Of a stretch of 35,063 nucleotides of DNA, positions 1,895 through 3,155 are shown one piece after another. The translations under genes and the position numbers were made by a program. Origin of the DNA: a virus; the IMG/VR virus record IMGVR_UViG_3300047562_000914, positions 1 through 35,063 of that record, one strand, 5' to 3'. The notes beneath the pieces are model-generated. The model did no database searches, was not told the DNA's origin, and was given only the letters and a program-made list of their open reading frames with translations. The stretch's first letter is position 1; each line of letters starts with the position of its first letter.

Positions 1895-1966
1895 TCCTCT
1901 GTCTGGGAATCGAACCCAGTATCCAAGTGCATTGTCTGCCTGTCCTTACCAATAGACTACCAGAGG
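1895..1966 (-). tRNA. tRNA-like sequence, anticodon not assignable
   Basis: This 72-base sequence has an acceptor stem (CCTCTG with CAGAGG), a short D arm with TTGGTAA in the loop, and a perfect T arm (CTGGG, TTCGATT, CCCAG). The anticodon region does not form a normal five-pair stem with a U at position 33; the best pairing is a short GCA/TGC helix closing a GACAA loop. A second copy with the same oddity lies at 3000-3072. It may be a degenerate tRNA or a stable tRNA-like RNA. Confidence 0.6.
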
Positions 1967-1969
1967 AAA

Positions 1970-2070
1970 GGTGATGAGTGCCCATCACCAGCGGAAGACA
2001 CTTTCCGCGATTTTCACTGCATTAGAGGGCAGTGAAGATATGATAGAATCAGACATTTCCAACCCTATCA
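1970..2070 (-). ncRNA. Array of four consecutive hairpins between two tRNA genes
   Basis: Four perfect inverted repeats follow each other: ggtgatg/catcacc (1970-1989), gcggaa/ttccgc (1991-2008), ttcactgc/gcagtgaa (2013-2036) and tgatag/ctatca (2041-2070, loop 18). Arms are 7, 6, 8 and 6 pairs; the first three loops are 6-8 bases. Nothing here is coding. It is presumably transcribed with the flanking tRNAs and could be a stable structured RNA, comparable in position to the non-tRNA stable RNAs of the T4 tRNA cluster. Strand is assumed from the neighbours. Confidence 0.6.
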
Positions 2071-2071
2071 A

Positions 2072-2143
2072 CTCCCCAACCTCGATTCGAACGAGGGACA
2101 GCAAAATTAACAGTTTTGAGTTCTACCACTGAACTATTGGGGA
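2072..2143 (-). tRNA. tRNA-Asn (anticodon GUU)
   Basis: Acceptor TCCCCAA with TTGGGGA, anticodon stem CAAAA/TTTTG around loop CTGTTAA (GUU), T loop TTCGAAT. Discriminator G; no encoded CCA. Its 5' end overlaps the last ten bases of the HNH gene. Confidence 0.94.
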
Positions 2144-2573: not shown

Positions 2574-2604
2574 GACAATCATAAACTATTTGAGTTTGAT
2601 TGTC
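2574..2604 (-). repeat. Inter-tRNA hairpin spacer, copy 1
   Basis: GACAATC and GATTGTC form a seven-pair inverted repeat in the spacer between tRNA-Gly and tRNA-Arg. Related spacers occur at 2685-2715 and 2964-2993 in the same orientation. Confidence 0.6.
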
Positions 2605-2606
2605 AA

Positions 2607-2963: not shown

Positions 2964-2993
2964 ACAATCATAAGGCATCAACCTCAGATTGTC
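2964..2993 (-). repeat. Inter-tRNA hairpin spacer, copy 3
   Basis: ACAATC and GATTGT pair, with AGG/CCT inside the loop able to extend the helix. It shares the order and the CAAGTG tail of copy 2 and separates tRNA-Ile from the second tRNA-like sequence. Confidence 0.6.
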
Positions 2994-2999
2994 AAGTGT

Positions 3000-3072
3000 T
3001 CCTCTGGCTGGGAATCGAACCCAGTTTCCATGTGTGTTGTCCACCCGTCCTTACCAATAGACTACGCAGAGG
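3000..3072 (-). tRNA. Second tRNA-like sequence, anticodon not assignable
   Basis: Closely related to 1895-1966: same acceptor CCTCTG/CAGAGG, same D-loop TTGGTAA and same T arm. The anticodon region again lacks a normal stem and U33. The best local pairing, GTG/CAC around GACAA, differs from the first copy's GCA/TGC by compensating changes, which suggests the odd helix is selected rather than random decay. Confidence 0.6.
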
Positions 3073-3075
3073 AAA

Positions 3076-3155
3076 TGCCGTGTGGTTGTGAATCTAAATC
3101 AAAACTCTTTGATAATCGCCCCACTGCATCTTATCTCAAGTTTTGAACCACGGCA
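3076..3155 (-). ncRNA. Structured RNA between tRNA-like sequence and tRNA-Lys
   Basis: An 80-base non-coding block is closed by TGCCGTG..GTT (3076-3087, two-base bulge) pairing with AACCACGGCA (3146-3155). It can continue inward through CAAAACT (3100-3106) with AGTTTTG (3139-3145). A competing hairpin, ATCAAA/TTTGAT (3098-3113), uses the same bases, so two exclusive folds exist. No known riboswitch is recognised. Confidence 0.55.

Follow-up and report, generated by a model that had tools for sequence, protein, structure and literature searches.

A candidate family of modular hairpin RNAs in the tRNA clusters of T4-like cyanophages

The four-hairpin element and its tRNA neighbours

We analyzed a 35,063-base viral record (IMGVR_UViG_3300047562_000914; the window) from a T4-like cyanophage whose relatives include S-SM2, Bellamy, S-SRM01 and other Kyanoviridae. 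The minus strand carries every tRNA gene of the window, and among these genes a single copy of a 105-nt, four-hairpin element occupies positions 1967–2071 (minus), starting directly behind the tRNA-Asn discriminator (2072) and ending at the base before a tRNA-like gene; these limits come from Rfam tRNA alignments, and the abutment is conserved. The upstream neighbour, tRNA-Asn(GTT) at 2072–2143 (minus), was called by Rfam (63.4 bits) and by ARAGORN. The downstream neighbour, at 1895–1966 (minus), was missed by ARAGORN and is supported by an Rfam tRNA match of 32.1 bits, in which the anticodon arm stays unaligned, by a covarying stem and by its fold.

Three near-consensus sigma-70-like promoters (TTGACA-N17-TATGAT or TAAGAT) lie between upstream tRNAs on the same strand as the element and recur in relatives. 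The nearest, TTGACA-17-TATGAT, is at 2578–2606 (minus), and the other two are at 2689–2717 and 2967–2995 (minus). The three are near-identical, each forming an inverted repeat TTGACAATC...GATTGTC. Between tRNA-Gly and tRNA-Asn, a small open reading frame (2134–2439, minus) overlaps the 5′ end of tRNA-Asn and has a weak, below-cut-off match to HNH endonucleases (E 0.0074); it is perhaps a homing endonuclease inside the tRNA cluster. A gene for a ferritin-like (Dps-type) protein (1357–1869, minus; Pfam Ferritin, E 2.5e-21) has a reading frame that extends into the tRNA-Val region.

The initial annotation had reported four perfect inverted repeats of 7, 6, 8 and 6 pairs at 1970–2070, and all four are present there. 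The arms 1970–1976/1983–1989, 1991–1996/2003–2008 and 2041–2046/2065–2070 form 7, 6 and 6 pairs, respectively, while the third repeat, with arms at 2010–2020 and 2029–2039, has the 8-pair perfect core but extends to 10 of 11 pairs, and the fourth is also longer than had been reported. The RNA strand is the minus strand, and the downstream neighbour is the tRNA-like gene. Since the RNA is read on the minus strand, the order of its hairpins is A (2070–2041), B (2036–2013), C (2008–1991) and D (1989–1970).

The minus-strand minimum free energy of 2071–1967 was −43.6 kcal/mol, compared with −23.3 ± 3.1 for dinucleotide shuffles (z = −6.58), and none of 200 shuffles was as stable. The predicted minus-strand fold consists of exactly four consecutive hairpins; the plus strand gave z = −5.66. 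None of 1,998 stretches of 105 nt sampled over both strands of the window matched the stability of the element.

Hairpin A (2041–2070, minus) reads TGATAG-GG-TTGGA-AATG-TCTGA-TT-CTATCA, in which the inner stem TTGGA/TCTGA, capped by the loop AATG, stacks on the outer stem TGATAG/CTATCA across a GG/TT step. Hairpin B (2013–2036, minus; TTCACTGC CCTCTAAT GCAGTGAA) combines a covarying stem with the constant loop CCTCTAAY. In the cultured phage S-PM2 the same loop is carried by the stem AGGGGAGT/ACTCCCCA, and its B loop CCTCTAAC sits on an unrelated stem. Complements of the B loop were not more frequent in the window than expected: two occur on the plus strand besides the hairpin itself, and a shorter one on the minus strand. 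The analysis turned up no partner or target of the element. Hairpin C (1991–2008, minus) is GCGGAA AGTGTC TTCCGC, and hairpin D (1970–1989, minus) is GGTGATG GGCACT CATCACC.

Covariation and module order in relatives

We gathered relatives by BLAST and pattern scans, mostly from IMG/VR, together with two cultured phages, S-SRM01 and S-PM2. The scans differed in what they held fixed: the D-stem scan fixed the D stem; the hairpin-B scan prescribed the B loop together with some of the stem, allowing mismatches at the varying positions; and the C-D scan prescribed both loops plus GGTG, but neither the C stem nor the 3′ side of D. Among 89 distinct relatives, including S-SRM01, all four helices covary, and 17 of 32 pairs are changed on both sides. 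Among these are four pairs in the outer and two in the inner stem of A and four in C, alongside those in B and D. The initial annotation had held that arms varying in relatives without compensating changes would speak against a structured RNA; the arms do vary with compensation. Compensatory substitution, the hallmark of a conserved structured non-coding RNA, is thus found in the proposed helices.

Pairing in the 89 sequences was retained in 98.0% of cells for the outer and 99.7% for the inner stem of A, 96.5% for B, 99.6% for C and 99.0% for D (100% for D in alignment A2, where four of its pairs are changed on both sides). For every helix, the best of 500 shuffles fell below the real pairing, and slid registers gave 14–73%. 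Counted separately, an alignment of 53 B-C-D sequences had 98.3% of cells paired and double changes in 9 pairs and 77 cells; none of 500 shuffles reached the real values for paired cells, double-changed cells or covariation score. The sequences are related to one another and some are perhaps redundant, so that cell numbers overstate the number of independent events. On the tRNA strand we counted 208 G-U cells, against 8 A-C cells, which would be G-U on the opposite strand. This asymmetry indicates that what is conserved is an RNA with the same reading direction as the tRNAs.

The terminal loops are nearly constant, and more so than the stems. Because the feature search demanded AGTGTC, the complete invariance of the C loop in the 89 sequences is so by construction; the less biased figure comes from elements selected by hairpin B, in which the loop is AGTGTC in 63 of 65 and AGCGTC in the other two. 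The D loop, GNCACT, is complementary to that of C, with complementarity in 98.7% of cells, and the two loops may dock, within or between molecules. No covariation was seen for this docking, and AGCGTC, in its 2 of 65 elements, breaks one pair.

In 144 distinct elements the modules follow the order A-d-b1-b2-(c or e)-B-C/D-f, in which any module may be absent. Hairpin A is always first where it is present inside the element, B-C spacing is constant in nearly all elements, and the stretch from A to B or C holds either no extra module or one or more of them. The modules b1 and b2 are short hairpins; c, of about 100 nt, is a multibranch fold closed by GAAAA.../...TTTTC; d, of about 105 nt, has a T-arm-like hairpin; e measures 60–95 nt; and f can come after C-D. 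In S-SRM01 the element is A-c-B-C-D, flanked by tRNA-Asn and tRNA-Thr; S-PM2 carries A-b2-B after tRNA-Thr; and in one locus (L193) a d module stands outside the element, ahead of a tRNA-like gene. In module e of two loci (L176 and L159), at least three different side arms are mounted on a core GGAG.ATGGGA...GATACC.CACCTGCC, which by sequence is a second level of exchange inside the family. Such ordered modularity is unusual.

The genomic setting is equally regular. Of the 111 elements whose upstream gene lies no more than 30 nt away, 106 follow tRNA-Asn, usually with zero spacer. The downstream gene is tRNA-Thr in 40 elements, tRNA-Val in 29, and the tRNA-like gene in 28 plus 11 in which ARAGORN names this gene Leu; the distance to the downstream tRNA or tRNA-like gene is mostly 4–6 nt. 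The C-D pattern had no match in 84,980 prokaryote genomes.

Relation to known RNAs and possible roles

We compared the element with catalogued RNAs. Rfam 15, searched with all families, including manA, wcaG and abiF, left it below the gathering threshold everywhere. At E ≤ 10 for the element and E ≤ 1 for three relatives, Rfam returned tRNAs and chance matches only, and neither ARAGORN nor Rfam found a tRNA cloverleaf in 1967–2071. A weak mascRNA match (E 0.12) spanning the element and the tRNA-like gene was taken as noise. A search of the open literature found no description of the element. We judge it to represent a genuine new family of structured phage RNAs, as yet uncatalogued, that occupies an already known genomic niche.

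That niche has other occupants. Cyanophage tRNA clusters hold the manA (RF01745), wcaG (RF01761) and abiF (RF03085) RNAs, and in S-CREM1 manA occupies the gap between tRNA-Leu and tRNA-Asn (PMC9964418, PMC2864571); the S-CREM1 study identified the non-coding RNAs of its cyanophage by Rfam matches. These RNAs resemble the element in being structured and in residing among clustered tRNA genes in phages of the same family, but their models matched neither the element nor the middle modules of the relatives scanned.

The nearest analogues by place and length are two small, stable non-tRNA RNAs encoded in the tRNA cluster of T4, RNA C (139 nt) and RNA D (119 nt). Like them, the element lies in a phage tRNA cluster, on the same strand as the tRNAs and with similar length; T4 rnaD sits 1 nt from tRNA-Arg, and the element likewise abuts a tRNA. 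However, an A-B-C-D covariance model (R2), run against the T4 region with filters off, gave no significant match, the best being 7.6 bits (E 0.078) outside rnaC and rnaD. The T4 RNAs adopt other folds, and RNA D, unlike the element, is no more stable than its shuffles. Given the different folds and the absence of a model match in the T4 region, we treat the resemblance as positional and do not claim membership in T4 RNA C/D. Sequence evolution gives strong support to the initial proposal of a structured small RNA resembling those of the T4 tRNA region, through compensating arms and abutment on both sides, although no homology with rnaC or rnaD is detectable. To our knowledge, no modular family has been described for T4 RNA C or D, and what the non-tRNA RNAs of the T4 cluster do is still an open question.

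We consider it likely that the element is a separate structured RNA set free from the tRNA transcript of a T4-like cyanophage. This reading draws on the fold z-score, compensatory changes, G-U strand bias, abutment on tRNA-Asn and fixed module order, as well as on the upstream sigma-70-like promoters of the same strand and on the T4 stable RNAs in a matching position. The element would be co-transcribed with the tRNAs. Since tRNA genes abut it, tRNA processing would free it: the enzymes that mature the 3′ end of tRNA-Asn, together with RNase P cutting at the following tRNA, would suffice, and the element would need none of its own. The product would be about 105 nt long, and up to about 210 nt in relatives, and its end-to-end hairpins would protect it. 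Action in trans is a separate step, for and against which we give about equal weight. Because the loops are more constant than the stems, a free RNA might well use its constant apical loops to bind a protein or RNA partner; the exchangeable middle modules could, more tentatively, adapt it to different hosts.

The element might instead act only in cis, as a structured spacer that guides or protects processing of the tRNA precursor, with no separate RNA; it would then be a 3′ roadblock behind tRNA-Asn and a spacer ahead of the next RNase P site. The exact fit of the element between its flanking genes agrees with such a role, as does the free variation of the middle in length and content, but a generic roadblock would have no need of the constant loops CCTCTAAY and AGTGTC (63 of 65), and neither the large multibranch modules of relatives nor the other tRNA gaps of the same cluster, which are short and lack the element, are readily accommodated. 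We therefore regard this explanation as unlikely, though worth keeping in view.

A special case of the released-RNA reading, whose decoy form was also raised in the initial annotation, would have the RNA bind an RNase of the host, or an RNA-targeting defence enzyme, as a decoy or inhibitor; it too seems to us rather improbable. Exchangeable domains between constant ends would suit diversification against varied hosts, and the neighbouring tRNA-like RNA is conserved yet has no normal anticodon loop, a feature that a decoy might show; other roles in trans, however, fit equally well. In its fullest form, which we offer as speculation of the same low probability, the elements would be host-tuned inhibitors or decoys of RNA-targeting defence, released by tRNA enzymes and built of constant end hairpins and exchangeable domains, that work alongside the GACAA tRNA-like RNA and whose C and D loops may dock.

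A transcription terminator or attenuator between tRNAs is very improbable: although a scan flagged hairpin D followed by TTTCC as terminator-like, and the element shares with bacterial intrinsic terminators a hairpin and a few T, the run is just three T long, the corresponding bases in relatives are TTTC, GTTC or CATC, with no conserved T-run after D, the next tRNA gene begins 4–6 nt later, and the three further hairpins and constant loops would be left unexplained. A DNA-level recombination or replication site whose hairpins are merely RNA-like is hardly credible either; middle modules do differ among relatives as if recombined at shared ends, but wobble pairs are retained on one strand only (the 208 to 8 asymmetry), the window has a single copy, and place and order within the tRNA operon are fixed.

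The separate-RNA reading can be addressed directly, since the family is well conserved, has dozens of natural variants and occurs in cultured S-SRM01 and, in part, S-PM2, where transcript, ends, partner and role are all testable. Our analysis suggests that annotation pipelines underreport the structured RNA genes of phage tRNA clusters.

The tRNA-like gene and a second structured gap

The tRNA-like gene, which we call T*, has two minus-strand copies in the window, at 1895–1966 and 2999–3073. It combines normal acceptor, D and T arms with an anticodon arm in which five covarying pairs and a bulged A carry a constant GAYAA pentaloop, with TGGAAA following; in the copy at 1895–1966, the bulged 5-pair stem carries the loop GACAA. 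Variants of this arm include AG-GCA/TGC-A-CT and AC-CCC/GGG-A-GT, among others. Matches also occur, without annotation of their own, in S-PM2, S-CREM1, S-RIM32, S-RIM8, DSL-LC03 and S-SZBM1. As it lacks the standard 7-nt loop, T* may not decode, and perhaps it is a decoy.

A second structured gap (3074–3155, minus) extends from tRNA-Lys to the second T* copy. It is closed by the stem TGCCGTG...CACGGCA, has a fold z-score of −3.71, and is kept in relatives with compensatory changes, for example as TGTCGCG...CGCGACA.
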